A stretch of 64,000 bases of DNA, taken from assembly GCA_001653155.1 (NCBI GenBank), contig BDEJ01000007.1, positions 1 to 64,000 of the forward strand, given 5' to 3'. Shown here piece by piece: positions 35,807 to 52,283 of the stretch (position 1 is its first letter; the number at the start of each line of letters is the position of its first letter). The DNA comes from Porphyromonadaceae bacterium H1. Its GTDB lineage: Bacteria; Bacteroidota; Bacteroidia; Bacteroidales; Paludibacteraceae. Both the position numbers and the translations under genes were made by a program. Under the pieces are notes generated by a model. The model had not been told where the DNA came from, did not search any database, and saw only the letters and a list, made by a program, of their open reading frames with translations.

Positions 35807-38800
35807 ATGATATATTGGAAGCAGTTGTTTAAGTCCTTTCGCCCGGAAGCTCTTCGCCTATCGTCCCGAAGTGTCTTCCGGAATTATGTGCTCGTTACGA
35901 TTTTGTTCTTATGTGTATGCTCTGAAATTGCTGTGGGACAAGAACTGATTGATGTCCGGGTGATTGGGCCTGTGCAGGGTTTGAGTCAATCTTCGGTACT
36001 GAGTGTACATCAGGATAGTCTGGGGTTTATCTGGATTGCTACACGCGACGGATTGAATATGTACGACGGAAACAAGATAACAATATACAGAAATGAACCG
36101 GAAAACCCTCAAAGCATTTCAGGAAGCAGCATAAATGATATTTGCGATGCTCCGGGAGGTAATGTTTGGCTTGCTCATAATAAAGGGCTGAGTTTGTTTG
36201 ACCGACGGAAGGAAGTTTTCCGTAACTATTGGGTCGGCGGTTTGCCCGATAATGAGATACGCTCGATTGTTGTGATTGATGATAACATATGGGCTTGCGG
36301 ATGGACGGGGGTCTATGTTTATGACAAGCGAAAGGATTGCTTTGTTCGGGCGGAATCAACATCCGAACTAAGCGCCAGGGTTTTATCTTCCTCCGTCTCT
36401 CTGATACGAAAAGCTCCGAAAACAAACGAACTATGGATCGGAACAACTACCCGGGGACTTTTTCGTTATAATACGGCAACCGATCGTATGGAACATTGTC
36501 CCGGTGTTTTTGCTAAAAACTCCACAATTTCCCAGAAGGAGCGAATTGAGGATATTCTTTTTCACCCGAATGGCAAAGCTTACATTGCTACTTATGGAAA
36601 CGGTATCTATGAGTGCGATCAAGCTGCCAGAATCCTGAGAAAATGGACCTCGGAAACTCTGTCTCAAACAAGTATTAACAACATTCGTTCCTTGGGCCTC
36701 GATAAAGACGGACGAATTTGGATTGGAGGGTTTGACGGGCTCTCTTTGCTGGATCCTGAGCAGGGACTTATCTCTCCTGTAAGTATTCGGAACGAATCGT
36801 ACATCCTTCAGAATCCATCCATTAGGTCTTTGTTTGTGGATCGGAATGCTTCCGTTTGGATTGGTACTTACCACGATGGCTTACTGTTGTATGATCAGTA
36901 TTTTGCCCGCTTCAGGATGAACTATATCAGTGGAGGAGCTTTGCGAAACTCGCATAGTATCGTCAGTGCTTTTGCTCATTGCGCGGGAAAGCTTTTTGTG
37001 GCAACAGAGAACGGCCTTTTACTTCAATATGACGAAAGAACTGGGCTTAGCGATAAAATTGAAATTCGAGATAAGAAAGGCAGCCCTGTTGTCATCAAAT
37101 CGCTTTATTACGATGAAGAAAATGCTGCTTTGTGGATTGGTTCTTTGCGTAATGGCTTGTTTTGCTTACGAAACAAAAAAGTGCTATCCGAAGGCTTAGA
37201 GGAGCTTGGAGTAATTAATCATATCAATTTGGCGTCTGAGGGCTCTCTCTGGTTGCTCTCCGACCGAGGGGGCGCATTAAATTTATATGATGTTCGTCGG
37301 CGAGAGTTAATGGCTTTTCCTGCACAAAAAGCATTACATGCTTTACTTGCTAGCAACAAAGGGAAATTTCTTACCCAACTTGAAGGTAAGCGCTTTTTGC
37401 TGTCGAGCGAAGGTGGTGGGCTCATTTTGATGGAAAATCAGGAGCAGGGAACAGCGAAACAAATCGATATCGGGACAAGTAAGGTGAACCATGCCTTTCA
37501 GCACCAGGGTAATATTTATGTCTCCACTAATGGAGAGGGGCTTTTGGTATTAAATTCTAACTTGGAAGTTGTAAGGCGTTATACAACCCGTGATGGATTA
37601 CTTAATAATATTGTGCATGGTATCGTGTCTGCCGACGAGGCCTTGTGGATTGCCTGTATCAATGGAATTTCACGCTTCTCGAAGCAGAACGGTTTTGAAA
37701 ATTATTACATAAAAAACGGTTTCCCGCTTTCGCAGCTCAACGGAAATTTATACTATAATCCGGCAGATGGAAAGATTCTTGCAGGAGGAAAGGACGCCTG
37801 GCTCTCCTTCGATCCGCGCCGTGTCTATAAAAATCCGTTCAAGCCTTCTATTTATATCTCTGGCATAAAAGTCAATAACCGTCCTTTGTCCTTGCATGAT
37901 GAGGACCTTACGGAACTTGACCTCAAGTATCATGAGACCTCGCTAACGCTCGAACTTGTCGGTTTGAATTATCTGATGCCCGAAAATAACAGTTATCGCT
38001 ATAAACTCGAAGGGATTGATAATACTTGGAAGTACATCGGGGCAAATGGCCTCGTGGAATACAGTCGCATACCGAGTGGAAAGTACGTATTCAAAGCCCA
38101 AGCCAGTAACAACGACGGTGTTTGGAGTGATGCCGTTTTGGAGCTGCCTGTTCATGTACATCCCCCCTTCTGGCTTTCGGCACAGGCTTTTGTCCTGTAT
38201 GTTCTTGTCCTGATTCTTACCTTGTGGTTGCTTTGGCGCAATGCCCTTAAAAGGGCCCGCCTGCATCACGATCTTCGGATTAAAGAGTTGGAGAAGCAAC
38301 GTATAGACGAGCAGCATCGTATGAAGGTAAAATATTTTACCGATATCAGTCATGAGATCAGAACGCCCTTGATGCTTATTCTCAGTCCTGTGGAAGAGAT
38401 ACTCGAAGATGAAAAACTAAAACCCTCACAGAGAAAAAAGATACAGAATATCCAATATCACGGAAACAATTTACTGCAATTAGTCAACCAATTGCTTGAA
38501 ATTAACCGGATAGAGATGAAGAAGGAGAAGTTGGAAGAAGTACCGGTGCTATTGAAGAACTTTCTGGAGAAGGTAAACAGTTCTTTTGCTTCGTTAGCCG
38601 CCAGAAATGGAATTGATTGGAAAGCAGATATGTCGGAGCTTTGTGAAGAGGCACTTTTTCTGGACAAAAAGAAAATCGAGAAGATTGTACTCAATCTGTT
38701 GTCTAACGCAATGAAGTATACTCCTAAAGGAGGACAAGTTTCCTTCGCCGTGAGGACCATACCCGATGATTTGTCTTCCTATACGGTTTACATCGATGTG

Positions 38801-39913
38801 GAGGATACGGGAATCGGGATTCCGGCCGAATCCCTTCCCTATATTTTCGAACGCTTTTACAAGGCCGATACCAAGGAGGGGAGCGGAAGCGGTATCGGGC
38901 TTTCTTTGGTGAAAACCATTGTGGAAGAATTGCTGGGGGGGCAGATAAAAGTTATCAGTACCCCCGAGAAAGGAAGTAAATTTTCGGTCGTGATACCTGC
39001 AGTGAAAAGTGCAGCCGGAGAAAGTCCTGTTGCACTTGACTGCTTTGAGCTTCCTCCTCAACTTTCGATGGACGTGGAAGCCGAAGCAGACTCGTATGTG
39101 GAGATGGATACTGCCGATAAAACCTACACTGTTTTGCTTGTTGAGGATAATGCATTGTTGCGTAATTCCTTGTTTGACAAATTGCAAAAAAACTTTCGTG
39201 TACTTTGTGCTTCTTCGGCCGAAGAGGCTGCGGATAGTTTGCAGGAGGAGGATATCGATTTAGTTGTATCGGATATTATGTTACCGGGTAAAAGCGGGAA
39301 GGAGCTTTGTGCGGAGATGAAATCGAATATCCTCACCAGCCACATCGCAGTGATTCTGCTAACAGCTATTCAGCAGGAAGAAAGTAAGCTCGAGAGTCTC
39401 GAATTGGGCGCCGACGATTATTTAATCAAACCCGTTTCCAATAAAGAGCTTTATTTGCGTATAATGAACATCCTGCAACGCAGGGAGCAGTTGCGGGAGC
39501 TTTATCTTAAAAGGCCGAATGCTTCAGCGGGTTATGAGCCTCGTTTTAATAAGTACGACAATCGTTTGCTGGAACAGATTGATGAGGAAATCGGAAAAAA
39601 TCTCGATAATGATGCTTACAGTATAGAGGACTTAAGTCGTGCGGTAGCTCTCAGTCGGGTGCATCTTTTTCGGAAAATGAAGAAGCTTCTTGGTATTTCG
39701 CCTTCGCGCTATTTGCGGAACTTTCGTTTACGAAAGGCTGTGGAGATTCTTTTGGTGGAGGATCTGCGCATTACGGAGTTGGCTTATCGTGTGGGCTTTC
39801 AGGATCCGAATTATTTTCTTAAATGTTTTAAGGAACTCTACGGCGTTTCGCCCGGACAGTATTCCAAGAAACTGAACGAAGAAGCCGCTAACGCTCGAAA
39901 TACCCCCAAATAA
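35807..39913 (+). CDS. hybrid two-component system regulator (HTCS)
   Basis: The 1368-residue protein has an N-terminal membrane/signal segment, then a periplasmic sensor of about a dozen propeller repeats with the W-I-G-T/S-x-x-x-G-L word, then a Y_Y_Y domain (to about 785). A membrane helix (about 792-810) leads to a histidine kinase with S-H-E-I-R-T-P-L (about 848) and an ATPase with N-L-L-S-N-A-M-K-Y and D-T-G-I-G-I-P. A receiver has its Asp in V-V-S-D-I-M-L-P (about 1153), and an AraC-type DNA-binding domain (about 1255-1360) ends the protein. HTCS proteins sense oligosaccharides and switch on neighbouring glycan-use genes. It likely controls the operon at 39888-49374 and the GH2 gene. 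ATG 35807 is preferred over an upstream TTG. Its end overlaps the converging gene by 26 bp. Confidence 0.95.
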   Translation: MIYWKQLFKSFRPEALRLSSRSVFRNYVLVTILFLCVCSEIAVGQELIDVRVIGPVQGLSQSSVLSVHQDSLGFIWIATRDGLNMYDGNKITIYRNEPENPQSISGSSINDICDAPGGNVWLAHNKGLSLFDRRKEVFRNYWVGGLPDNEIRSIVVIDDNIWACGWTGVYVYDKRKDCFVRAESTSELSARVLSSSVSLIRKAPKTNELWIGTTTRGLFRYNTATDRMEHCPGVFAKNSTISQKERIEDILFHPNGKAYIATYGNGIYECDQAARILRKWTSETLSQTSINNIRSLGLDKDGRIWIGGFDGLSLLDPEQGLISPVSIRNESYILQNPSIRSLFVDRNASVWIGTYHDGLLLYDQYFARFRMNYISGGALRNSHSIVSAFAHCAGKLFVATENGLLLQYDERTGLSDKIEIRDKKGSPVVIKSLYYDEENAALWIGSLRNGLFCLRNKKVLSEGLEELGVINHINLASEGSLWLLSDRGGALNLYDVRRRELMAFPAQKALHALLASNKGKFLTQLEGKRFLLSSEGGGLILMENQEQGTAKQIDIGTSKVNHAFQHQGNIYVSTNGEGLLVLNSNLEVVRRYTTRDGLLNNIVHGIVSADEALWIACINGISRFSKQNGFENYYIKNGFPLSQLNGNLYYNPADGKILAGGKDAWLSFDPRRVYKNPFKPSIYISGIKVNNRPLSLHDEDLTELDLKYHETSLTLELVGLNYLMPENNSYRYKLEGIDNTWKYIGANGLVEYSRIPSGKYVFKAQASNNDGVWSDAVLELPVHVHPPFWLSAQAFVLYVLVLILTLWLLWRNALKRARLHHDLRIKELEKQRIDEQHRMKVKYFTDISHEIRTPLMLILSPVEEILEDEKLKPSQRKKIQNIQYHGNNLLQLVNQLLEINRIEMKKEKLEEVPVLLKNFLEKVNSSFASLAARNGIDWKADMSELCEEALFLDKKKIEKIVLNLLSNAMKYTPKGGQVSFAVRTIPDDLSSYTVYIDVEDTGIGIPAESLPYIFERFYKADTKEGSGSGIGLSLVKTIVEELLGGQIKVISTPEKGSKFSVVIPAVKSAAGESPVALDCFELPPQLSMDVEAEADSYVEMDTADKTYTVLLVEDNALLRNSLFDKLQKNFRVLCASSAEEAADSLQEEDIDLVVSDIMLPGKSGKELCAEMKSNILTSHIAVILLTAIQQEESKLESLELGADDYLIKPVSNKELYLRIMNILQRREQLRELYLKRPNASAGYEPRFNKYDNRLLEQIDEEIGKNLDNDAYSIEDLSRAVALSRVHLFRKMKKLLGISPSRYLRNFRLRKAVEILLVEDLRITELAYRVGFQDPNYFLKCFKELYGVSPGQYSKKLNEEAANARNTPK

Positions 39914-41927
39914 AACAGAATTTTTTGTCGAAACAAGCCTCGATTTTCTGTTCGGAAAGAACTTTTATACGACCCTCACCAGCCAGTTTTATAAATTTTG
40001 CATTCTTCTCAAGTGCAACAGGGAGAGCATAGTTGGCACTCGAATCCTCGGTATTCTCTCTGAATAGAAGGAAATAGATGCGTTTCTGTGTACGGCTTAT
40101 GAAGCCACTGAAACTATAGCCGTCAGGCATTGCACCGATAGGGTGGATGATGCCTTGTTGCATCAGGCTTCGCTCTTGCTTCCACGTGTTTATGAGTGCT
40201 GCGACGGAGAAAGCTTCTTCCGGTAGGCCGGTAGCTTCGAACCAAGCCAGTGGCTGTGCCATCATGGCAGTGGCAAACTGGTAGTCGAATGGGACGTTGA
40301 TCGGTTGTAAAGGATCGTCTGCCGGATATTTGTCTGTGTTGCGCCACTTGTTCAACCATTCTATTTGCAGGCGTTGTGCAGGCAGGTATCTCGATAGTAG
40401 CCAGAGATTTCGCAAGCTCAGATGTGGGTAGTAGTTGCCCCAATCGGTATATCGATTTTCGAGAAAGATGCTTCCCAATCGATTGAAAAAGAAGTATCCT
40501 CCTCGTTTACCGGCTGTTACATCCATGTTGAAACGGAGCATTCCTTGAGTGCTGTCTGTTGCTTCGTTCAGCAGTTTACCGACACGTGTTTCGGCAGTTT
40601 TGTTTCCTATCTCGAGGCCGTCTATTTTAATCCAGGAGATATTTTGCGTTCGATGGAGTTTCACGAGGATGTTGCGGTCGCGTTCCCAATTGGCATAATT
40701 ATTTGCTTTGGATGGGTTGAACCATAAGCCCAGTTCTATTTGCAAAGAGCGAGCCTTGTCGGTAATGGGTTGGAGTCCTCTTGGAAAGCGTACTTTATTT
40801 ACCTGCCAGTCCTCCTCACTCCAGTCGTTCCAGAGTAATCCTTCTTTTTTCGAGGAGTTTTGCGAGAGACCTTGTTGCCAGCCGTCGTCAATCTGATAGT
40901 GCGTTACCCCAAGCCGGGCAGCAGCGTCGAGTTCTTTCAGAATAAATGCTTCGTTCACGCGGCTATCGCGGTTCCGATCGCCCCAAGTATTTACGGTGAA
41001 GCTGTTGTCTCTTTCCGGCAGATAGTGATGTACGGCCAGCTCGTATTGTTTGTAGAGAATCAGAGCTTCGTTTTCACTTGCGGCATGCAGGAGACTGAAT
41101 ATAGGATAGGCTTCTTGCCATTGATCCGAAGGGTTTGAATGGGTGTTTTCGAATCCCGGAGCATGGATTCGGATGCCGCTGAATTCAGTACTGAAATCGA
41201 ATCCGCAATAGGCGGCTTGAGCTTGTTGTATGGGCGATAATTTCACAAGTAGCTGTGCCCCTATATCGGAGTTCTTGCTGAGCGCCAGAAGAAGATTCCC
41301 TCGGTAATATTGCGCTTTCCGATAGGGCAATTCGTTTTGAAGGCTTACCGGGTTGCAGTGATGGTCGGTAGCCTCTCTGAAAGATACGATTTTTGTTGTG
41401 AGGTGCGGGGTTGCAAGCGGCAGGGCAAAGTAATGTGGAGCATGACCTTTGAGCAAAGCTGCATCTTCTATCAGATCGCCGTTAAGTCCTGTTTGAGTTG
41501 TGAAATATTCCGTTTTTCCTCTGACCGACAAGCGCCATTCGATGCCGGGTGTATTGTCGTATATGATTAAGCTGCGGCGTATTTCACAACTATCGTAGCG
41601 GACATATAAGTCAAGCCGGGTGGCAGCTACACTACGCTCCGTGGCCGGAAGGCGGCTTATTTGCTGCGACGTAAAACGGACTGTTCCCGCTTGTACCCGG
41701 TCGGGCAGAGCTTGCTTGTAGCTATGGAAGTATTTGCTACCGGATCGTTTGGACTGTATTAAGTTGAGTAATCCGTTTTCCCAGCGATAGTGCTGTTCGC
41801 TTAGCCCATCGTGTACTTTCAGCGTTTGTGCATCGAGCCAAATGAAAGCTTTGCTCTTCGCTGATGTCCCGAAGGTAAAAAGCGACAAGAGCAAAGCACT
41901 TAGGAGAATCCGACGATGGGCTAGCAT
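39888..41927 (-). CDS. alpha-galactosidase-like glycoside hydrolase (GH36-like, clan GH-D)
   Basis: The 679-residue protein has a signal peptide (about 1-23), an N-terminal beta-sandwich and a TIM barrel. In the barrel, D-D-G-W-Q (about 347-351) and W-I-K-I-D (Asp436, candidate nucleophile) follow the clan GH-D pattern. Asp495 in N-R-Y-T-D-W is a candidate acid/base. The usual GH36 motif around the acid/base is not intact, so the exact family and the sugar are uncertain. It is the last gene of the receptor operon, 3 bp after the phosphatase, and overlaps the end of the converging regulator gene. Confidence 0.82.
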   Translation of the reverse strand: MLAHRRILLSALLLSLFTFGTSAKSKAFIWLDAQTLKVHDGLSEQHYRWENGLLNLIQSKRSGSKYFHSYKQALPDRVQAGTVRFTSQQISRLPATERSVAATRLDLYVRYDSCEIRRSLIIYDNTPGIEWRLSVRGKTEYFTTQTGLNGDLIEDAALLKGHAPHYFALPLATPHLTTKIVSFREATDHHCNPVSLQNELPYRKAQYYRGNLLLALSKNSDIGAQLLVKLSPIQQAQAAYCGFDFSTEFSGIRIHAPGFENTHSNPSDQWQEAYPIFSLLHAASENEALILYKQYELAVHHYLPERDNSFTVNTWGDRNRDSRVNEAFILKELDAAARLGVTHYQIDDGWQQGLSQNSSKKEGLLWNDWSEEDWQVNKVRFPRGLQPITDKARSLQIELGLWFNPSKANNYANWERDRNILVKLHRTQNISWIKIDGLEIGNKTAETRVGKLLNEATDSTQGMLRFNMDVTAGKRGGYFFFNRLGSIFLENRYTDWGNYYPHLSLRNLWLLSRYLPAQRLQIEWLNKWRNTDKYPADDPLQPINVPFDYQFATAMMAQPLAWFEATGLPEEAFSVAALINTWKQERSLMQQGIIHPIGAMPDGYSFSGFISRTQKRIYFLLFRENTEDSSANYALPVALEKNAKFIKLAGEGRIKVLSEQKIEACFDKKFCFIWGYFER

Positions 41928-41930
41928 GAG

Positions 41931-43187
41931 TTATTTTGTGATTTCGAAATGGTCTATCAAGACATCCGTTTCGCTGAAGGCCCGATAGGATATTTTTTCG
42001 CGTGTAAATTCAATGTATTGATAGGCGCTGGTATTGGGGTAAGCTACATCCATCCAGCTTTGTTTGTTTAGTTCGTAATATTTGTCACCTATCACACTTA
42101 CGGTGAATACGGGTTTCGAGGGGCGATCGAGACTACCTGTTCTATCGTCCAAACCGCCGCGGGCATAGGTGTGGTCGTGTCCTTGCAGTACGAGAGCCAC
42201 CTTATCGCGGTGTTTGCGTATCACGGGAAGCCAATTCTCAAGCAGACCTTTGTTTGTTCGTTTGAGAGAGCCCGAAAACACGGGATGATGCCACACCAGG
42301 ACCACCCATCTCTGCTTTGTTTCGGATAGAACTTGATCAAGCCATTTGCCTTGTTGATCCAGTTTTTCGTTGGAATTGAGCAACACAAATCGAACAAAGC
42401 CGTAATCCAGATAGAAAGGGCCTACATCCCACGTATAAGGATAGGGGAATTGAGTTGTCCAGTATTTAGAAAGTTCGACTTTCTTGCCTTGCAGATTTTT
42501 GAGATATTCGTGATTACCCGGAGTGGCCATCACCGATATTGAGGTGTTGATGTCACCTGTAGCACGATGCCATTCGGACCATTCGTAGTCATTATTGGCG
42601 TGGTTAATGAGGTCTCCTATATGGAGAGCAAGGTTGGCCCGACCGAACTTGCGCAGAGCGTCTTTATAAATTCGTGTGGCGTGGTTGAATATCCCGTTTT
42701 GCGTATCACCGAAATAGAGCAGCCGGATCGTATCGCGGTAGTCGGGATGGCGGTAACTGTACCAAGGGCTCCATTGAGGTGAGCGTCCCACGCGATATTT
42801 GTAAAGACTTCCGGGCTTCAAATCGCGGATAAGAGCTTGGTGAAAATGCATGGGATAGTCTTTGTATTGTACGGTTTTGTAGGAGGCTTCGATGTGCTTC
42901 CGTTGCGTTTTCGGAAAATTCAGAGAGTCGGCTTCAATTATTTCCACAAGTCCGTTAGTCACGGTGGTATCGCTACGCCATACTACGGCCAACTCCTGAC
43001 TGTTCGATGATTGGGGTATCAGGATTACACGGTCGGGAAGTGCGCTTGGGCGATGATCAAAGAGCGGATTTTTCGCCGGAGCCGACTCCTTGTCCCAGCG
43101 GGCTTGCAGCTCGGGCGGCACTTGTGCAGAAACAGATACCGATAAGGCCAATAGGCTTGAAAACAGGCCAATAATTTTTTTTTGCAT
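41931..43187 (-). CDS. purple acid phosphatase-like metallophosphoesterase
   Basis: The 418-residue protein has a signal peptide (to about V-S-A-Q), an N-terminal Fn3-like purple acid phosphatase domain (about 40-145) and a calcineurin-type catalytic domain. The metal motifs are all visible: G-D-T-Q (about 165), G-D-L-x-N-H, G-N-H-E (about 224), V-W-H-H-P and G-H-D-H-T-Y. It should hydrolyse phosphate mono- or diesters in the periplasm. A phosphatase inside a glycan-use operon suggests a phosphorylated or phosphodiester-linked substrate, or scavenging of phosphate. It follows the second lipoprotein after about 90 bp containing a hairpin. Confidence 0.92.
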   Translation of the reverse strand: MQKKIIGLFSSLLALSVSVSAQVPPELQARWDKESAPAKNPLFDHRPSALPDRVILIPQSSNSQELAVVWRSDTTVTNGLVEIIEADSLNFPKTQRKHIEASYKTVQYKDYPMHFHQALIRDLKPGSLYKYRVGRSPQWSPWYSYRHPDYRDTIRLLYFGDTQNGIFNHATRIYKDALRKFGRANLALHIGDLINHANNDYEWSEWHRATGDINTSISVMATPGNHEYLKNLQGKKVELSKYWTTQFPYPYTWDVGPFYLDYGFVRFVLLNSNEKLDQQGKWLDQVLSETKQRWVVLVWHHPVFSGSLKRTNKGLLENWLPVIRKHRDKVALVLQGHDHTYARGGLDDRTGSLDRPSKPVFTVSVIGDKYYELNKQSWMDVAYPNTSAYQYIEFTREKISYRAFSETDVLIDHFEITK

Positions 43188-43277: not shown

Positions 43278-44855
43278 CTAACGGATTGTTCCGTCGGGAT
43301 TTTTTACCCAACCCTTTGTCCAGTCGTCGGTTTCGTTTTTGATAGCACCCACAAACGGCGCGTCACTGAAAAAGGTATCAATGGATTTGGGATTGAATGT
43401 ACTGGTCTTTTCCGCATTCGGGATGAAGTCGTTTACTCCGATTCCGTCAATACTTTCGCAGTCAAACTGATCTTTTGTTTTCTTCTGTACGTTGTTGAAG
43501 AAGGGGTTGGCTGTTTGCTGTCCGGAGGCATCAAAGTCGCCCGCAAATGGGGTAGCGAGGTCTTTAAAGGCATCCTCTTTTATATCGAATACATAGGAAT
43601 GAGCGAATACCGCTTCGCCGTTCAGGTCGGTAACTTTTACTTTATCTTTCGCCCTTACTGCCCTTCGGGGAAATCCGGCCACGATGCTGTTGTAAATTTT
43701 CGGTGCAGCAGCGTCCTTCATGTAGATGCCCTGCGTGTCTTTTTCAGCCTTTGAACCGGGTCCTAATATCGTTACGTTAGCTACCACAGGTGAAACCGAT
43801 TGTTCAAGGCGGAAAGCATCGTTTTCTTTGTAGAAGACGCTGCTTACAGAAATAAGAAACTGCATCTTACCGGAGTAGTTATTTTTTAATTGGAAGGATC
43901 CGCCTTCGCAATCGGTGGCTACCAGATATTTCACGTTGACATCGCTTTTTTCCGCTATCATGATGCCTACACCATCATTAGATCCATTTTTCCCGCTTTT
44001 ATATACTTGTATGTGATCGACCTGTGTACCTGATCCGACATCTGAAAGGGTCAGGGCGCGATGTCCCGGATATTCGATACGCAAGTAACTGATACGTCCA
44101 CTTGAGGTATTTTTACCCTTTCCCTTTACTTTGAACTTTTCCCAGTCGTTGACTTGTACTTGTTGAGGATTACTGAGAAGCTTGCTGCTGGTCATTATTA
44201 CCGGTGCGTTTGCACTACCTGTGATATTTACTTTACCGTCCACTTCCAATTCGATCTTTTCGGTAGCATCGGCATTCATGTAGAGCTCTACACCTTCTTC
44301 GATAATCAATTCGGCGGCTTCGCCTATTTCGAGAGAGGCCGGCAGGTAGTATCTCCGGTTCTTGGATAGTTTGAGAACTCCGGCTTCGAGTTTTCCGTCT
44401 TTGCCTACGCCGCCGAGGTCAAAAACAGCTGTTGTACCAAGCTGCATACTGGGGTAGAGGGCGGCTCGGAGCACGAAAGTAACTTCTTGACTTTCGACCT
44501 TTCCGGTATTGGTCAAAATGAATGAGTAGGTAATTTCTTCTCCTTCGAGGGCGGTTTTGGCAAATGTTTCGGTTTGGAAATCGAATTTGTCGCTTGTTGC
44601 AAGGACGGGAACCTCTTTGAGGAAACCTCCGTTCTTTTTCACAATTACCGATTTGGCTGCTCCGTCAGCTTTCAGCTTCAGGCTTATGGTAGTTGTTTGT
44701 CCGGGGGCTAAATCGGCGGACCCGTTACCTTCCAGCGATATTTCTGGTGTTCCGAACTGTGGAGTGTTATTGCTTGTACAAGCAAAATTTAGCATGGATA
44801 CTGCGGCAAAAAGACTCGCAATAAAAAAGACCTGTTGTTGTTTGATCTGTTTCAT
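43278..44855 (-). CDS. surface lipoprotein, right-handed beta-helix type, receptor partner 2
   Basis: The 525-residue protein has a lipoprotein signal with Cys near residue 26 (L-N-F-A-C-T). An N-terminal Ig-like region (about 30-130) is followed by a long stretch of short strands with V-x-x-T-x-L-x-G spacing typical of a parallel beta-helix (about 200-420). The C-terminus carries the words F-V-G-A-I-K-N-E-T-D-D-W-T-K-G-W, which are shared with the neighbouring lipoprotein. Proteins of this kind replace SusD beside some TonB receptors in Bacteroidota; the ligand is unknown. It is 57 bp downstream of the sister gene in the same operon. Confidence 0.82.
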   Translation of the reverse strand: MKQIKQQQVFFIASLFAAVSMLNFACTSNNTPQFGTPEISLEGNGSADLAPGQTTTISLKLKADGAAKSVIVKKNGGFLKEVPVLATSDKFDFQTETFAKTALEGEEITYSFILTNTGKVESQEVTFVLRAALYPSMQLGTTAVFDLGGVGKDGKLEAGVLKLSKNRRYYLPASLEIGEAAELIIEEGVELYMNADATEKIELEVDGKVNITGSANAPVIMTSSKLLSNPQQVQVNDWEKFKVKGKGKNTSSGRISYLRIEYPGHRALTLSDVGSGTQVDHIQVYKSGKNGSNDGVGIMIAEKSDVNVKYLVATDCEGGSFQLKNNYSGKMQFLISVSSVFYKENDAFRLEQSVSPVVANVTILGPGSKAEKDTQGIYMKDAAAPKIYNSIVAGFPRRAVRAKDKVKVTDLNGEAVFAHSYVFDIKEDAFKDLATPFAGDFDASGQQTANPFFNNVQKKTKDQFDCESIDGIGVNDFIPNAEKTSTFNPKSIDTFFSDAPFVGAIKNETDDWTKGWVKNPDGTIR

Positions 44856-44912
44856 GATTTTTTCGGTTTTTAAAGTGTTTTTGTAAGATATTATGTATGA
44901 GCGATTAAGTGC

Positions 44913-46523
44913 TTATTTTCGTAAACTCCCGTCGGCATTTTTAAACCAGCTTCCTCCTGTAGTCCAGTCGTCACTCGGATTTACAGCTCCGATATAAGAA
45001 GCGCTTACAAACCAAGTGTCCATGGTCTTGGGGTCATAGCTGCTGTTGACACTACCTACAAAATTTGTAGTGGATATGCCGGCAACAGCTTCTTCTTTGA
45101 GGTTGTATTTCCCACTTTTGAAGAAAAATTTCTCGGCTTCCTGTCCCCAGTTTATTGCATTGTTGTAGGAGTGTATGTTATCAATAATCATGCTACTTCC
45201 GAGTGTTTCTTCGGGGAGGTCTTCTACCCGTACACCGTCGTTAGGGAATTCGGTTACTATGGCATTATACAGGAGTCCCCGGGCGCCTCTTCGTACGCGT
45301 AGTCCGCGCCGTGTTCCCTTGTTTTGGTTGGACTCATAGCCGTTTCCAATGAGAGTGAGGTTGCTTAACATAAATGTGGTTATGGGCTCTTTGTTATACA
45401 TCGTGTCGTCGTTTCGGAACTCAACCGAGCGTGCCTGGTTCCAGTAATTCACAGGAAGCAGTGTTGCTTCTATGTTGGTCTGGAAAAGCCAAAATTGCCC
45501 TTTTCCCTGCCATCCTTCGTCGGCCCAGATGCCGTAACCTCCGTGCTGTATTCCGGCTATGTAGCGAAGTGAAACTCTTCCTCCTTTCAAACGAAAGGCA
45601 TTGTTGTTCGATTCGAAAGACTCTATGTATTCCATCTCGCTTGTACTACCTACTCCGTAGAGTTGCAATGCATGCTGCTTGGCTTTACCGGAATATTCAA
45701 TCCGTATGAAGCGGAGCTTGCCCGAATTATCGTCGGGGTTATTACCGCCGTATTTCAAGCCGTTATCTGCCAGTACGTTATTGCCCGCATTCGAAGGGGC
45801 CTTCCCGAGGATGAGGATACCTCCCCAGTCGCCTCGTTTGGCTTTTCCGCTCAGACTTTTGTCGCTGGTGAAGACGATGGGTGCTTCGCGCTTACCCACT
45901 GCTTGTATTTTTCCATCGCGCAACACAGCCAATGCGCTGTATTTGTCGTTGTCGTCGTAGCTCATAAAATAAACGCTCGTGCCCGCTTCAATGGTCAAAG
46001 TCGTATTCTTATCTATTTTTACGATGCCGTCTATCAACCATTTCCGGTCTTTGGTCAGGCTTAGATCTTTGTTTACCTTGCCCCAAATTTTCGTGAAGTT
46101 TTGTCCTTCGTGTACGACTTCCTCCAAACGGAAAGCTTGGGCAATTTTTACTGTTATGGGCTGTGAGCTAACAGCTCTGCCTTTATGATCTTCCATCCGG
46201 AAAGATATTTGCAGTTCCTGACCTATGGAAATGTCTCCCGGTATTTGATGTACATAGTTGTGTTCGAAAGTAAAAACTTCGCCTTCCATTGTGATCGTTT
46301 TCACTTTTGTTCCGTTCACAAATACCTCCACTTGTTTGATACCGGCCAGCGACTGTGTCACGAAGTCTATCTCGATTTCGCTTGCAGGTTCTTCTACCAG
46401 GGGATTGCCGTCATAATTGAGTATCGAAATGCTGGCTTCGGGTAGGGCTAATTCTCTTTCACGTTCGCAGGCAGCGAGCAAAGGGAGCAGGCCGATAAGC
46501 AGATACAGTAGTTTGGGTTTCAT
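44913..46523 (-). CDS. surface lipoprotein, right-handed beta-helix type, receptor partner 1
   Basis: The 536-residue protein has a lipoprotein signal with Cys at residue 19 (L-L-A-A-C-E). An Ig-like N-terminal part (about 30-130) is followed by a beta-helix-like core with G-D-W-G-G-I-L-I-L-G-K-A (about 232-243). The end has Y-I-G-A-V-N-P-S-D-D-W-T-T-G, matching the other lipoprotein. The two are therefore ancient duplicates with diverged binding faces. It starts 28 bp after the TonB receptor, the place SusD normally occupies, so it is probably the surface ligand-binding partner of that receptor. Confidence 0.82.
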   Translation of the reverse strand: MKPKLLYLLIGLLPLLAACERERELALPEASISILNYDGNPLVEEPASEIEIDFVTQSLAGIKQVEVFVNGTKVKTITMEGEVFTFEHNYVHQIPGDISIGQELQISFRMEDHKGRAVSSQPITVKIAQAFRLEEVVHEGQNFTKIWGKVNKDLSLTKDRKWLIDGIVKIDKNTTLTIEAGTSVYFMSYDDNDKYSALAVLRDGKIQAVGKREAPIVFTSDKSLSGKAKRGDWGGILILGKAPSNAGNNVLADNGLKYGGNNPDDNSGKLRFIRIEYSGKAKQHALQLYGVGSTSEMEYIESFESNNNAFRLKGGRVSLRYIAGIQHGGYGIWADEGWQGKGQFWLFQTNIEATLLPVNYWNQARSVEFRNDDTMYNKEPITTFMLSNLTLIGNGYESNQNKGTRRGLRVRRGARGLLYNAIVTEFPNDGVRVEDLPEETLGSSMIIDNIHSYNNAINWGQEAEKFFFKSGKYNLKEEAVAGISTTNFVGSVNSSYDPKTMDTWFVSASYIGAVNPSDDWTTGGSWFKNADGSLRK

Positions 46524-46551: not shown

Positions 46552-49374
46552 TTAGAATCTGAGGGATGCTCCGAAGCGAGCCGACCAGCCGAAATAAGCA
46601 ATTCGCGATATGTGTTCTTCCTGTCCTTGATAGCGGATGGAGGGAGCATTTGTCAGATTCATGAATTCGGCATAGAGCCTGATCTTTTTGTTGATTTCCT
46701 GCGACAGGTTTAAGTCGAGTTGCATGCGCTCGGCCTGAATGATATCGTCGTCTTGGTTGTTGGCAACCGATTCAATGAAAGATCCGTTATAGTTCAGGCT
46801 GGGCTTTATCGTAAAGCCTTTGTAATCCCATGAGAAGGCTATGTTGCCTGTGTGCATGGCCTGTCCCGGCAGCCGCATGTTTTCTCTATCCTGTGTACTG
46901 GCATCGCTTCCGGTAAAGGTGTAGTTGAGATAGGCACTTAAGCCTTTCAAAGCTCCGCTCAGGAAAGAAAACTGTTGCATATAATTGAGCTCAAATCCAT
47001 AAACGATGGCTCGTTTCCCGTTTTGCTCTTGCTTGAACTGAAAGCCGGTGGTGTTCGGATATCCGGGAAAATCTTCCAAAAGCACGGGGGTGATTCTCGT
47101 AAACTGGAACTTGTCCATATGTTTGAAAAATAAACCTCCGGAAAGGACGCCTCCTCGACGGTCGTATCTTTCGAACATGAAGTCTATGTTTTTGGCTAAA
47201 GACGGAACAAGTTTCGGGTTGCCCAAGTAAAGTCTCAATGCGTCTGCATCGTAATTTACAAAAGGAACGATGTCCACAAAGTTTGGCTTGGCGTAGGAGT
47301 GGGTGTAGGCAAAGCGGAAGTTCGTGAGTTGATTGAGGCTGTATTTTACATGCAAACTGGGTAAGACGAAAGCATAACTATTCTTTTCCGCTATGGGAGT
47401 AGCAATAACGCTTGTTCCGTAGCGTTTCACGTCAAAAGCTTTATAACCTACTTCGTTTTGCTCGTATCGCAGACCGGCTATTATCAGAAAATTGCTGATC
47501 TGAATCTTGTTCATCAAATACGAAGCATAGACGTTCTCGGAAGCTTCGTAGGTGTCGTTTTTCGAAAGGCGTTCGGCATCCCAGGCATCGTCTCCGGTAA
47601 TAAGAAGTCTGCGGTAACTGTCTATGAAGTTCGTGAATTTAATTTTGTTTACCCTGGGGCCGTAGTCGTAGCGCCCGTTGAGGAAGTTAATGGGTTCCGT
47701 ATTTCCGACCACACGCGCAAAAGCTTCTTGGAGGTTGAGTATGCCATTCGGATCGTAAAAAGAGAACACCTTATTGTTCCTGTATTTATCGTTTCTGGCA
47801 ATGCGCACTTTCCCTCCGAATTGGAGCAATCCGTTGTAGTCCTTCAGCCGGTAGTCTTTTTTTACGTTTATCTTTCCTACGGCATTCGAAGCCACGGTGT
47901 ATTCGCTGTCTTCTTCGTAGCGTCTGAAGTTGTTCAGCAAAAGAGGGTTCTTGATGTCAAAAGGACGACTGGGGCGAAATTGAGGAACAGGAGCCAGTAT
48001 GCCTCCTTCGTTGTCTGCTATAATGTGTATCTCGTCTCTTGCAAAATCGCCCCGGGTGCTTGTGTAGTCGCGTCGTGAGGTGGTGTAAAAGGCTCCCCAG
48101 TTTATTGTCCAGTTACCTAGGTTGCTGCTACCTTCCAGATTGAAGTTGTGATTGTTCTTTATTTCATCCCAGATGTTTATGTCGCGTCTGATACGTCCGT
48201 TTTTTATGCTGTCGAGCGCTATCCACTCCGATGTCGTACGGTCGAGGTCGAAACGCAGGCGGTTGCGTGCATCGTCGTCTTCGCGGTAGTTGTACATGTA
48301 GTTGAATATCACTTCGTGGTTTTTTACCTTGTAGTCGATGGTGGCAGTGGTCCCGATGCGGGTACGTTTGTTCTCGGTTTTTCGAAACTGGAAGTCTTGA
48401 GGCAAGGTGAGACTTTGTCCCAAGCTTTGAACCGGTTTCTTAATGTTCTTCCACCTGGCATCCATGCGGTCCTCTGAGTTATTACTGGAGTAGTAGCTTC
48501 CGCTCAGCAATATGCCCAATCGTCCGTGATTGTTGTTGCGGCTGGGAAAAAAGCGTCGGCTGACTTGCATTTTCCCGATATAGTTGAGTTTTCCGGCCAA
48601 ATCGTTAAAACCCATACCCAAATCTCCGCGCAGCCTTAATTTATTCGAACGGGCGGTAGGGGTTCTCAGGTTCACGTTACCTCCGATGGCATCGCCATCC
48701 ATATCGGCTGTGAGGGCTTTGGTCACTTCGATGGATCCGAGCTGATCGGCGGGGATTAAATCAAGAGCTTCGGTTCGTGTTCCGCTTTGTTGAACGGAAG
48801 CCAATTGTTCGCCGTTGATGCTGATGTTCGTGAAGTGTTGAGGTGTTCCGCGTATGCTTACCGTCGAGCCTTCGCCCTTGTCGCGCAGGATGTTGATTCC
48901 GGGAAGACGTTGCAGGGATTCGGCCACGTTTTTATCGGGAAATTTTCCGATGAGATCGGCCGAGACAACATTTTTGATATTGTCGGCTGCACGTTGTTGA
49001 TTCAGGGCTCGTTGCTGTCCTTCGAAACTTCCTGTTACAATAACTTCTCCTAAAGCCGTATTGGCGGGAGACAGACGGATGATTGCCACTTCGCCGATTC
49101 CTTCGGGTATTTTCACTTTGCGCTCTAAAGTCTGATAACCCAGATAGGATATGACCAGGCTGAGTTCTCCGCGTTGGAGCTTGGGGAGGCGAAAGTAGCC
49201 TTCCAAGTCGGCAGCAGCCCCGTTAGAAGTCGACTTTATCTGTACGGTGGCTCCCGCTAAGGGCTCTTCCGTATTTTGGTCGATTATTTTTCCCTTGATT
49301 TCATAGTTCTGTGCTAACAGAGATGTAGATAGCAGCAGAGATACTGACATTACGAACAGAATCTTTGTTTTCAT
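46552..49374 (-). CDS. TonB-dependent outer membrane receptor of the glycan/phosphate locus
   Basis: The 940-residue protein has a signal peptide (ending L-L-A-Q, about residue 21) and a carboxypeptidase-regulatory-like domain (about 23-110). A plug follows with G-S-F-E-G-Q-Q-R-A-L-N, L-P-G-I-N-I and V-S-I-R-G-T, then a large barrel ending G-A-S-L-R-F. It is shorter than a typical SusC (about 1000-1100 residues) and belongs to the FecA-like or CirA-like branch. It heads an operon with two lipoproteins, a phosphatase and an alpha-galactosidase-like enzyme. A palindrome 76 bp upstream is shared with the GH2 gene. Confidence 0.93.
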   Translation of the reverse strand: MKTKILFVMSVSLLLSTSLLAQNYEIKGKIIDQNTEEPLAGATVQIKSTSNGAAADLEGYFRLPKLQRGELSLVISYLGYQTLERKVKIPEGIGEVAIIRLSPANTALGEVIVTGSFEGQQRALNQQRAADNIKNVVSADLIGKFPDKNVAESLQRLPGINILRDKGEGSTVSIRGTPQHFTNISINGEQLASVQQSGTRTEALDLIPADQLGSIEVTKALTADMDGDAIGGNVNLRTPTARSNKLRLRGDLGMGFNDLAGKLNYIGKMQVSRRFFPSRNNNHGRLGILLSGSYYSSNNSEDRMDARWKNIKKPVQSLGQSLTLPQDFQFRKTENKRTRIGTTATIDYKVKNHEVIFNYMYNYREDDDARNRLRFDLDRTTSEWIALDSIKNGRIRRDINIWDEIKNNHNFNLEGSSNLGNWTINWGAFYTTSRRDYTSTRGDFARDEIHIIADNEGGILAPVPQFRPSRPFDIKNPLLLNNFRRYEEDSEYTVASNAVGKINVKKDYRLKDYNGLLQFGGKVRIARNDKYRNNKVFSFYDPNGILNLQEAFARVVGNTEPINFLNGRYDYGPRVNKIKFTNFIDSYRRLLITGDDAWDAERLSKNDTYEASENVYASYLMNKIQISNFLIIAGLRYEQNEVGYKAFDVKRYGTSVIATPIAEKNSYAFVLPSLHVKYSLNQLTNFRFAYTHSYAKPNFVDIVPFVNYDADALRLYLGNPKLVPSLAKNIDFMFERYDRRGGVLSGGLFFKHMDKFQFTRITPVLLEDFPGYPNTTGFQFKQEQNGKRAIVYGFELNYMQQFSFLSGALKGLSAYLNYTFTGSDASTQDRENMRLPGQAMHTGNIAFSWDYKGFTIKPSLNYNGSFIESVANNQDDDIIQAERMQLDLNLSQEINKKIRLYAEFMNLTNAPSIRYQGQEEHISRIAYFGWSARFGASLRF

Positions 49375-49449
49375 GCGTATTTGTGTGTTTGAGGCGGCCG
49401 TTAATTTTGACGGCTAAGTTCTGAAATTTATTTGAATTTTCCCGCTTTG

Positions 49450-49480
49450 CATGTAACGAAAAACTGCAATTATGTTACAT
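49450..49480 (-). promoter_or_regulatory. candidate operator 1, upstream of the TonB receptor operon
   Basis: ATGTAAC (49451-49457) and GTTACAT (49474-49480) form a perfect 7-bp inverted repeat with a 16-bp centre containing GCAATTAT. The 31-bp block matches 24 of 31 bases of the block at 52253-52283. It lies 76 bp before the receptor start, the distance expected for an activator site. A weak -7 element (TAAATTTC on the minus strand at 49430-49423) lies between. Confidence 0.6.
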
Positions 49481-49521
49481 TTGAGGCAAGCGACTTTTCT
49501 TTTTCTCTTCAAACGGCTGTT

Positions 49522-52179
49522 TCAATAGTCTGTAGAGCGGATTCTTATGGCACTTACTACGGCTTCTTTTTCTATGGGATGAAATTTTATCGAGATGCCT
49601 TCGTCGTTGTAAACGCGGCATTTGAAGCGCAATCTGTTAGGAACGTTCAGTCCGAAGTACTGTCCCAGATCAAGTTCGCCATTGATGTCTCGGTTGTTAA
49701 CCGATATGCTGAAACTTCGTTTTCCCGGAGTATAAACCACTTCGCGATCTTCATCGGCAAAGCGACGAAAACTCTTTACGTAATCCACCATGAGGATTTC
49801 TACCTCGTAATTCCCGCTGGGGACATCGGCCCGGAACTCCTCCGGGTTAATCCGTATGCTTTGATAAAGAGGGTCTTCCTCATCCACTGCACGAATATCT
49901 TCTTTCGTACCTACTTTGCCGGATATGTAGAGTTGTTGCCCTCCGATGTATCCCCAACTCCCATTTTTGTATTCCTGCTCGGGTAGCCAATAAAGTCCGC
50001 TTCGACTGTCGATGAAGGCATAGTTGCAGCCGAGATTGACACAGAGATCGAGATTGTGCGACGGGAGTTTAAAGGGAAGCAGTTGCGTACGAATGGTTTT
50101 CGTCGCTGTTTTTCCACTGCTGTCGAAGCTGAGACGGAAGCTGCCCTCGGGGAGCTGTATGCTCCACTTGGCGATTCCATTTTCGACCTTAGCGGTCGCA
50201 AAGAATTTTCCATCGATGTAAAGTGGTAACTCTTTCCGGTTTGAGAGTGCGTACATATCGACGCGTACAAGGCTGTCTTCGAGACTCTCGGCGGCTTGCA
50301 GCCAATGCTCACGGAAAGGATAGCCAAAACGAGCTACTTGTTGTTTGCTCAAGAGGGCTTCCATGAGGTAGTAGGCATCTTTGGGTTTTCGATCTGCTGT
50401 GAGAAGGCCTTTGTTGTTCATGTGTGATGTGGCATCCACCCGCCTTTCGGAGCTGAAATCCACCAGATTCCAAAGCGCCCCGCCTGCAATGTAAGGGCGC
50501 TCCATGATTTGACGGCTGATGGATTGCGTAAACGCTACTTGCTCTTCGATGCTGAAATCGAACTTTTCCGGCTTGTTGCTGTACAGTCTTATGTCCGACC
50601 CGGCTCCGTATTCGCTGATCAGGTGTATCCGTTCGGGGTAGTTGGCGTGTTGTTCGTCCATGAATTTGCCGAAGTCGTCGTAGTTGCCATAGTACCATCC
50701 GTGGTAGAGATTCCAGCCGGCTATCATGGGTATGCTTGCTATCTCGGATTCGTTGTAAAGCGGATAGTTGTGCATGGCCATAGCGGTGTAGCGCAGCGGA
50801 TCGAGGCGTCGCGCTTCGTCTTCGAGACGTCGTGCCAGCTCGAGGGTGTAGCGATTTCGCCCGGGTAGTTCCTGTTCGGGTTTGAAGCGGTGAGCCCAGT
50901 ATATTTCGTTCATGTATGCCCAAATGATTATCGAAGGATGGTTGTGATGCTGTTTGATCATCTCGCGAAGCATGTTTAGAGAATTCTCGGTATGCTCCAC
51001 GGAAGCCGTTACTTCATTTACGAGTGGGATTTCTTCCCATACAAGAAGCCCCTTGCGGTCGGCTGTGCGCAGCACCTCGTCTGCTTGCGGGTAGTGAGCG
51101 TTACGCAGAAAATTTCCTCCCATATCTTTAAGCAGTTGAAGATCCTGCCGGTGCATGTCGTCGTTGAGGGCATTTCCGTATGGAATCCGATCCTGATGGC
51201 GGTTAGCTCCCATTAGTTTGAGTCGTTTTCCGTTCAGGAAGAAACCCTCGCGGGCATCGAAGCGAAACCAGCGGAAGCCGAGAGGCTGACTGAGGCGGTC
51301 GCATTCTTTTTGCCCTTCGCTCAAGGTACTTTCCACGTAGTAGAGTGTTGCTTTGTCCGGGCTCCAGAGTTCGAAGCCCCGCAATTTGTCGAAACGTACT
51401 TTCAACGTCGATTCTCCTGTGGCCGGAATCTTGACACACGTTGTTTTTTGAGCCAAAATTGTTTGGGCATCTTTTCTTATTTGCGTTTCCAGTTGGAGGG
51501 TAACGCTGCGTGGCTCATCGTTGCGGAGCAAGTATTCCACAACCACATTTGCGCTTTCGGCAGACACTTGAGGTGTCGTTATGTAGATGCCGGGGCCTCC
51601 GTAATCGGACATAGAAAAATGTTTGTCGCCTGTGGTGATGAGGCTCACCGGGCGGTAAATCCCTCCGAAGAAACTAAAATCGGCCGATAGGGGAGGGATG
51701 TTTTCGTTGTGACTGTTGTCTGCACGAACGGAAATATATTGCTCGCCCGAAAGTTTTAAAAATGGGGTAATGGGTATGTTGAAAGCCGTATATCCTCCTT
51801 CGTGTTTGCCAGCAAAATATCCGTTGATATAAATCTCAGCACTTTGATTGATGGCCTCGAAGCGAAGAAAATAGCGTTTCTTTTCTTCGGGCTTCAGGTA
51901 GAAGTGTTTTTTATACCAGGCAGCTCCCCGGTAGTAGCCACGAAAGCCATCGGCTAAAACATCTTTGTCGTTCCATGTATGAGGTGTTTCCACACTTTGC
52001 CAGCCTAAGCTGTTCTTGTTCGGAAGACGCGCCGAAGTGCTATCGCCTTTTGCAAAGAGCCAGCCCGAGTTAAAAGAAATTGTGCGGCGCCCGGCATGAG
52101 CTTGTTGAGTGCTAAGAGCCGTAAAGCTCTGTATGCCGATTAAACATAAGAAAACAAAACGAAGTGACTGTGTGTGCAT
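49522..52179 (-). CDS. GH2-family beta-galactosidase with malectin-like C-terminal region
   Basis: The 885-residue protein has a signal peptide (about 1-29), then the GH2 sugar-binding jelly roll (about 55-185), an Ig-like domain (about 190-300) and a TIM barrel. In the barrel Glu425 (Y-M-N-E) fits the acid/base and Glu523 (L-I-S-E-Y-G) the nucleophile. After about residue 640 come an Ig-like region and a malectin-like carbohydrate-binding region (about 710-885). It should cleave terminal beta-galactose (or a related sugar) outside the cytoplasm. It is its own transcription unit upstream of the receptor operon but carries the same operator, so the two units should respond together. Confidence 0.93.
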   Translation of the reverse strand: MHTQSLRFVFLCLIGIQSFTALSTQQAHAGRRTISFNSGWLFAKGDSTSARLPNKNSLGWQSVETPHTWNDKDVLADGFRGYYRGAAWYKKHFYLKPEEKKRYFLRFEAINQSAEIYINGYFAGKHEGGYTAFNIPITPFLKLSGEQYISVRADNSHNENIPPLSADFSFFGGIYRPVSLITTGDKHFSMSDYGGPGIYITTPQVSAESANVVVEYLLRNDEPRSVTLQLETQIRKDAQTILAQKTTCVKIPATGESTLKVRFDKLRGFELWSPDKATLYYVESTLSEGQKECDRLSQPLGFRWFRFDAREGFFLNGKRLKLMGANRHQDRIPYGNALNDDMHRQDLQLLKDMGGNFLRNAHYPQADEVLRTADRKGLLVWEEIPLVNEVTASVEHTENSLNMLREMIKQHHNHPSIIIWAYMNEIYWAHRFKPEQELPGRNRYTLELARRLEDEARRLDPLRYTAMAMHNYPLYNESEIASIPMIAGWNLYHGWYYGNYDDFGKFMDEQHANYPERIHLISEYGAGSDIRLYSNKPEKFDFSIEEQVAFTQSISRQIMERPYIAGGALWNLVDFSSERRVDATSHMNNKGLLTADRKPKDAYYLMEALLSKQQVARFGYPFREHWLQAAESLEDSLVRVDMYALSNRKELPLYIDGKFFATAKVENGIAKWSIQLPEGSFRLSFDSSGKTATKTIRTQLLPFKLPSHNLDLCVNLGCNYAFIDSRSGLYWLPEQEYKNGSWGYIGGQQLYISGKVGTKEDIRAVDEEDPLYQSIRINPEEFRADVPSGNYEVEILMVDYVKSFRRFADEDREVVYTPGKRSFSISVNNRDINGELDLGQYFGLNVPNRLRFKCRVYNDEGISIKFHPIEKEAVVSAIRIRSTDY

Positions 52180-52216
52180 GATACTTTGAAGATTTATATG
52201 CTTGATGTTTCGTGGG

Positions 52217-52224
52217 CAAAGTTA
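52217..52224 (-). promoter_or_regulatory. -7 element TAACTTTG of the GH2 gene
   Basis: On the minus strand TAACTTTG reads from 52224 to 52217, 38 bp before the start codon. No -33 element is present at the normal spacing, which suits an activator-dependent promoter. Confidence 0.6.
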
Positions 52225-52252
52225 TATACCGAAGCTCCTTTCTGCTTCTTAT

Positions 52253-52283
52253 CGTGTTACCAAAATAAGCAATTATGTAACAT
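52253..52283 (-). promoter_or_regulatory. candidate operator 2, upstream of the GH2 gene
   Basis: GTGTTAC and GTAACAT arms (one mismatch as an inverted repeat) surround a centre with GCAATTAT. It lines up without gaps with 49450-49480. The A/T change in the left arm is matched by a T/A change in the right arm, which keeps the palindrome. It lies 74 bp before the GH2 start, almost the same distance as operator 1. The rest of the 370 bp between the GH2 gene and the acyl-CoA dehydrogenase gene holds only a terminator. Confidence 0.6.

Follow-up and report, generated by a model that had tools for sequence, protein, structure and literature searches.

A 21-bp direct repeat upstream of a beta-glucuronidase gene and a TonB-dependent receptor operon, and its probable reading by a hybrid two-component system in Porphyromonadaceae bacterium H1

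A stretch of 64,000 nucleotides from contig BDEJ01000007.1 of Porphyromonadaceae bacterium H1 (hereafter the window) contains two similar 31-bp blocks, one in front of a receptor operon and one in front of a glycoside hydrolase family 2 (GH2) gene, which raises the question of what kind of regulatory site they form and which protein reads them. The genes concerned are transcribed from the minus strand, in the order GH2, TonB-dependent receptor, two putative lipoproteins, phosphatase-like protein and a GH36-like gene ending at 39888:

49522..52179, minus strand: GH2 beta-glucuronidase, ortholog of Tannerella forsythia TfGUS L2 (PDB 8DHL), with NNK at residues 588-590
46552..49374, minus strand: TonB-dependent receptor with CarboxypepD_reg and Plug domains, above cutoff for TIGR01782 and below it for SusC/RagA
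44913..46523, minus strand: putative lipoprotein A, partner gene of the receptor, its signal peptide followed by a conserved Cys19, without a SusD domain
43278..44855, minus strand: putative lipoprotein B, without a SusD domain, conserved in gene order
41931..43187, minus strand: purple-acid-phosphatase-like metallophosphoesterase, a conserved neighbour
39888..41927, minus strand: GH36/melibiase-like protein, a weak match

NNK is the carboxylate-recognition motif of beta-glucuronidases, and in the GH2 protein it sits at the place aligned with TfGUS L2. The match to PDB 8DHL reached 1337 bits in phmmer over residues 20-884. In the sections of the publication used here, 8DHL is described as the T. 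forsythia beta-glucuronidase TfGUS L2, by which chondroitin-type 9-mers were not processed (<1%) (PMC10162664). The receptor scored 470 bits for TIGR01782 (cutoff 310) and 77 bits for SusC/RagA (cutoff 368), and neither lipoprotein matched the SusD family, so that the locus lacks both defining members of a SusC/SusD polysaccharide utilisation locus. Lipoproteins A and B (43278-46523) matched no Pfam or NCBIfam family above cutoff and were 45-61% identical across orders. The predicted structure of lipoprotein A was all-beta at low confidence (mean pLDDT 55), which was not enough for searching by fold; both lipoproteins possibly take a SusD-like role for the TIGR01782 receptor. Elsewhere in the window, positions 29946-32786 encode a large protein in which cadherin-like/Big_9 domains are combined with a C-terminal sorting domain for type IX secretion.

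The blocks at 49450-49480 and 52253-52283, read directly and without gaps, were identical at 24 of 31 positions, and the agreement described in an earlier, sequence-only reading of the window was thus borne out. Among 500 dinucleotide-shuffled intergenic pairs the best 31-mer match averaged 19.3 with a maximum of 23, and 24 was reached in none. The blocks lie 75 and 73 bases 5' of the ATG codons at 49374 and 52179 on the minus strand, and the following sites were defined within them:

49451..49479, minus strand: operator of the TonB-dependent receptor (TBDR) operon, direct repeat TGTAACATAATTGCAGTTTTTCGTTACAT
49472-49478 (GTAACAT) and 49451-49457 (GTTACAT), minus strand: half-sites of the TBDR operator, period 21 bp
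52254..52282, minus strand: operator of the GH2 gene, direct repeat TGTTACATAATTGCTTATTTTGGTAACAC
52275-52281 (GTTACAT) and 52254-52260 (GTAACAC), minus strand: half-sites of the GH2 operator, period 21 bp

The pattern search covered all 2.84 Mb (117 contigs) of the genome. TGTNAC-N16-GTNACA, the scan proposed by the sequence-only reading, was found only at the two window sites, and a fuller motif allowing up to three mismatches gave the same two sites and none elsewhere. Since no shuffled pair equalled the match and the genome held no further sites, the resemblance between the blocks is real and specific; a motif common in unrelated intergenic regions, which had been named as grounds for abandoning the idea, was looked for and not found. 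As a search pattern across genomes, the palindromic form TGTNAC-N16-GTNACA was too weak: it occurred in 93 of 101 genomes (H1 and relatives), with one to several copies in most related genomes and no more often than a reversed control.

Orthologs of the receptor (60-71% identity) were present in eight other genomes: G408, G529 and G532, Proteiniphilum sp. X52, a Bacteroidales MAG, two Capnocytophaga and a Cytophagaceae MAG. G408, G529 and G532 belong to one genus, which a GH2 start near-identical to 8DHL marks as Tannerella-like. The order GH2, receptor, lipoprotein A, lipoprotein B, phosphatase, GH36-like protein was kept in most ortholog loci; the Cytophagaceae contig has no GH2, phosphatase or GH36-like gene beside the receptor. 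Using an operator motif trained on four sites, we found the operator in every one of these eight genomes, which span Bacteroidales, Flavobacteriales and Cytophagales, 5' of at least one of the two orthologous transcription units; as expected of the operator of a hybrid two-component system, it precedes glycan-use operons and is kept in the orthologous loci. GH2 and the receptor gene each have one site upstream in G408, G529, G532, Proteiniphilum and C. cynodegmi; the Bacteroidales and Cytophagaceae MAGs have a single site, before the receptor. Within the GH2/receptor cluster of Capnocytophaga sp. S28M the site preceded GH2 only; no operator was found in the region upstream of its receptor, which may be read from the GH2 promoter. 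In G532 an additional operator lies some 6 kb away from the main site (L099, contig G532:C12, site 51420). A truncated copy of GH2 comes after it, so that promoter and gene start have apparently been duplicated in part.

Among 393 Bacteroidales genomes, the receptor, the ortholog of the hybrid two-component system discussed below and paired motif sites were all confined to H1 and G408. A single stray match with at most two mismatches occurred in 15 of the other 391 genomes and two matches in none, and stray matches to a reversed control motif were similar in number. GH2 homologs in the nearest 100 genomes were considered as orthologs and rejected as unconvincing, being only 33-39% identical; those scanned had no motif.

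For the repeat analysis, 16 distinct sites from nine genomes were aligned (H1, Tannerella-like, Proteiniphilum, Capnocytophaga, Cytophagaceae and others); they come from related sequences and are not independent samples. In the alignment both halves read GTAACAT in one orientation (GTAACAT-N14-GTAACAT), with a period of exactly 21 bp in every site, and the general form GTWACAT-N14-GTWACAT has the two half-sites about 21 bp apart that characterise operators of hybrid two-component systems. At the base that discriminates between the two kinds of symmetry, 12 of the 14 non-redundant sites agreed with a direct repeat and two, both of them the window sites, with an inverted repeat. The likeness of the halves was limited to GTWACAT; beyond it the direct repeat was weak, and the conserved centre, AATTnC..TTTTT, was unrepeated. 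In B. thetaiotaomicron all 16 predicted motifs of hybrid two-component systems are direct repeats with an average spacing of 21 bp (Ravcheev et al. 2013, PMC3878776), and the direct repeat is favoured for the window sites also because AraC-type proteins of this class are predicted to use one (PMC3878776).

A gene for such a protein lies on the opposite strand and runs convergently into the end of the receptor operon:

35807..39913, plus strand: hybrid two-component system (HTCS), proposed regulator, with Reg_prop sensor, Y_Y_Y, HisKA, HATPase, REC and AraC-type HTH

The AraC-type HTH was recognised by PF12833/PF00165 matches. HTCS orthologs were detected in all nine cluster genomes (44-56% identity, against at most 35% for paralogs), sharing a contig with the receptor in six (H1, G408, Proteiniphilum, both Capnocytophaga and Cytophagaceae) and separated from it by contig in the Bacteroidales MAG, G529 and G532. 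The HTH was 69-71% identical in six of the orthologs, compared with 44-51% for the sensor and 28-39% for the HTHs of paralogs. The Cytophagaceae HTCS has the most divergent HTH (54%, sensor 42%), and the same genome has the weakest-scoring operator site. No operator was found upstream of the HTCS gene that would point to autoregulation. In the REC domain the motif S/CHIP-DK is known, deviations from which have been linked to altered inhibition of DNA binding (PMC11253607); at about 39200-39260 of the window it reads SHIA in H1, as in the Tannerella-like orthologs, and SHIP in Proteiniphilum and Cytophagaceae.

Conserved linkage and co-occurrence support both a regulatory site shared by the receptor operon and the GH2 gene and the choice of this HTCS, named as candidate by the sequence-only reading, as its likely regulator. 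They fall short of proving that the HTCS binds, and the sites might instead serve another, unlinked regulator, such as a LacI-type uronate regulator or a CRP-like protein, with the HTCS controlling something else. In Bacteroides, LacI-type UxuR/UxaR/KdgR regulators act on uronates, and a Crp-type palindrome for sugars, wwwTATGTTnTAnAACATAwww, shares some letters with the motif (PMC3878776). However, the Crp-type motif is palindromic and that of the window operators is not; many sites would be expected in each genome for a global regulator, whereas two or three were found here, nearly all inside the regulon; and the conserved cluster contains no other regulator gene. We regard an unlinked regulator as unlikely, and the HTCS is very probably the reader of both sites.

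The sequence-only reading had described the blocks as inverted repeats with a paired compensatory change. Its description of the letters was accurate, both window sites being perfect TGTWAC-N16-GTWACA inverted repeats (TGTAAC/GTTACA and TGTTAC/GTAACA), and the pairs G-C, T-A and C-G at positions 2, 3 and 6 are kept everywhere, because GTWAC is nearly self-complementary. The orthologous sites do not share the symmetry expected of a palindromic dimer operator: the central pair 4/25 was unpaired in 14 of the 16 sites and the outermost pair 1/28 in seven, covariation between the supposed halves was no higher than in shuffles across the 16 sites, and the relatives have GTAAC in both halves in the same orientation. 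Only the window sites pair at 4/25, because each has one A-to-T change, in opposite halves, and in a nearly self-complementary GTWAC such a change in one half gives the look of a palindrome; the compensatory change was therefore given up in favour of the direct repeat. It is highly unlikely, and already largely refuted by the repeat match and pairing counts of these sequences, that a symmetric dimer binds the blocks as genuine inverted repeats. The case shows that a self-complementary half-site can mimic a covarying palindrome when only two sites of the same genome are compared.

The direct repeat also has a fixed place in the promoter:

49413..49421, minus strand: predicted -7 box of the receptor operon, GAACTTAGC, matching TAnnTTnGC at 5 of its 6 fixed bases, 29 nt past the operator
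52216..52224, minus strand: predicted -7 box of GH2, TAACTTTGC, with 6 of 6 fixed bases, 29 nt past the operator

A TAnnTTnGC box with at least five of six fixed bases was found 28-30 nt downstream of the operator in 16 of 17 aligned promoters (exactly 29 nt in 12), and boxes at other offsets were single occurrences only. The box agrees with the sigma-ABfr -7 consensus, TAnnTTTG (quoted in PMC7366714); the GH2 promoter matched it exactly (TAACTTTG) and the receptor promoter in degenerate form (GAACTTAG). For the -33 TTTG element, no strongly conserved stretch was found between operator and -7 box in the aligned sites, which is consistent with dependence on an activator. The half-sites would lie near -44 and -65, a layout suiting an activator that contacts RNA polymerase.

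We consider it highly probable that the two blocks are activator sites of the HTCS at 35807-39913 within a small, conserved regulon for beta-glucuronide utilisation, consisting of two transcripts in H1. The periplasmic sensor would detect a glucuronide breakdown product, upon which the HTCS would phosphorylate its own receiver domain. Paired AraC-type DNA-binding domains would then fill both half-sites on one face of the DNA beside RNA polymerase, the 21-bp period of the GTWACAT repeat corresponding to two helical turns, 29 nt upstream of the sigma-ABfr-type -7 box. The beta-glucuronidase gene and the receptor/lipoprotein/phosphatase/GH36-like operon would thereby be switched on. Activation rather than repression, binding by the HTCS and the identity of the inducer are predictions of this model.

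In both Capnocytophaga a third operator, located past the HTCS gene (L085:15626-15654 and L086:17942-17970), precedes uxuB-uxuA, encoding D-mannonate oxidoreductase and UxuA of glucuronate catabolism; in C. cynodegmi, where the operon was read further, uxaC (UxaC) and then a DctP-like protein follow. Judged by these gene contents, the Capnocytophaga regulon appears to reach cytoplasmic glucuronate catabolism, and the third site fits a glucuronidase regulon.

The same layout is known from the AraC I1-I2 operator of Escherichia coli araBAD, with two same-orientation half-sites 21 bp apart adjoining the promoter. The window operators share the orientation, the 21 bp and the place beside the promoter, and differ in having a membrane-bound phosphorelay protein as proposed regulator and a promoter of Bacteroidota type. 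With the B. thetaiotaomicron HTCS operators (PMC3878776) they have in common the direct repeat, the 21-bp centre distance and glycan-use operons adjoining an AraC-type HTCS. Compared by general layout rather than motif by motif, they are set apart by the regulon, the half-site sequence and the conserved T-rich centre; the systems differ further in a receptor that is not SusC/SusD, in conservation across three orders and in the cytoplasmic uronate genes added in Capnocytophaga. In the sections of PMC10162664 used here TfGUS L2 (PDB 8DHL) was studied as an enzyme, and no operator or HTCS control of it is described there. In the literature collection searched, no publications on this HTCS/receptor/glucuronidase locus were found.

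The window sites are best seen as a further case of an already known type of operator, the HTCS direct repeat, with a well-defined motif and a regulon shared by three orders. The motif is precise and transferable, and it defines the regulon of a locus with an ortholog of a structurally solved T. forsythia beta-glucuronidase. It also makes the question of the inducer testable, namely which glucuronide activates the HTCS. We lean towards the broader reading that an HTCS, a regulator usually tied to SusC/SusD, here runs a non-SusCD glucuronide uptake system (TIGR01782 receptor, two beta-rich lipoproteins, phosphatase and TfGUS-L2-type glucuronidase) through one highly specific 21-bp direct repeat, that oral, animal-associated and other Bacteroidota have kept this arrangement, and that in Capnocytophaga it would extend to the cytoplasmic glucuronate pathway.
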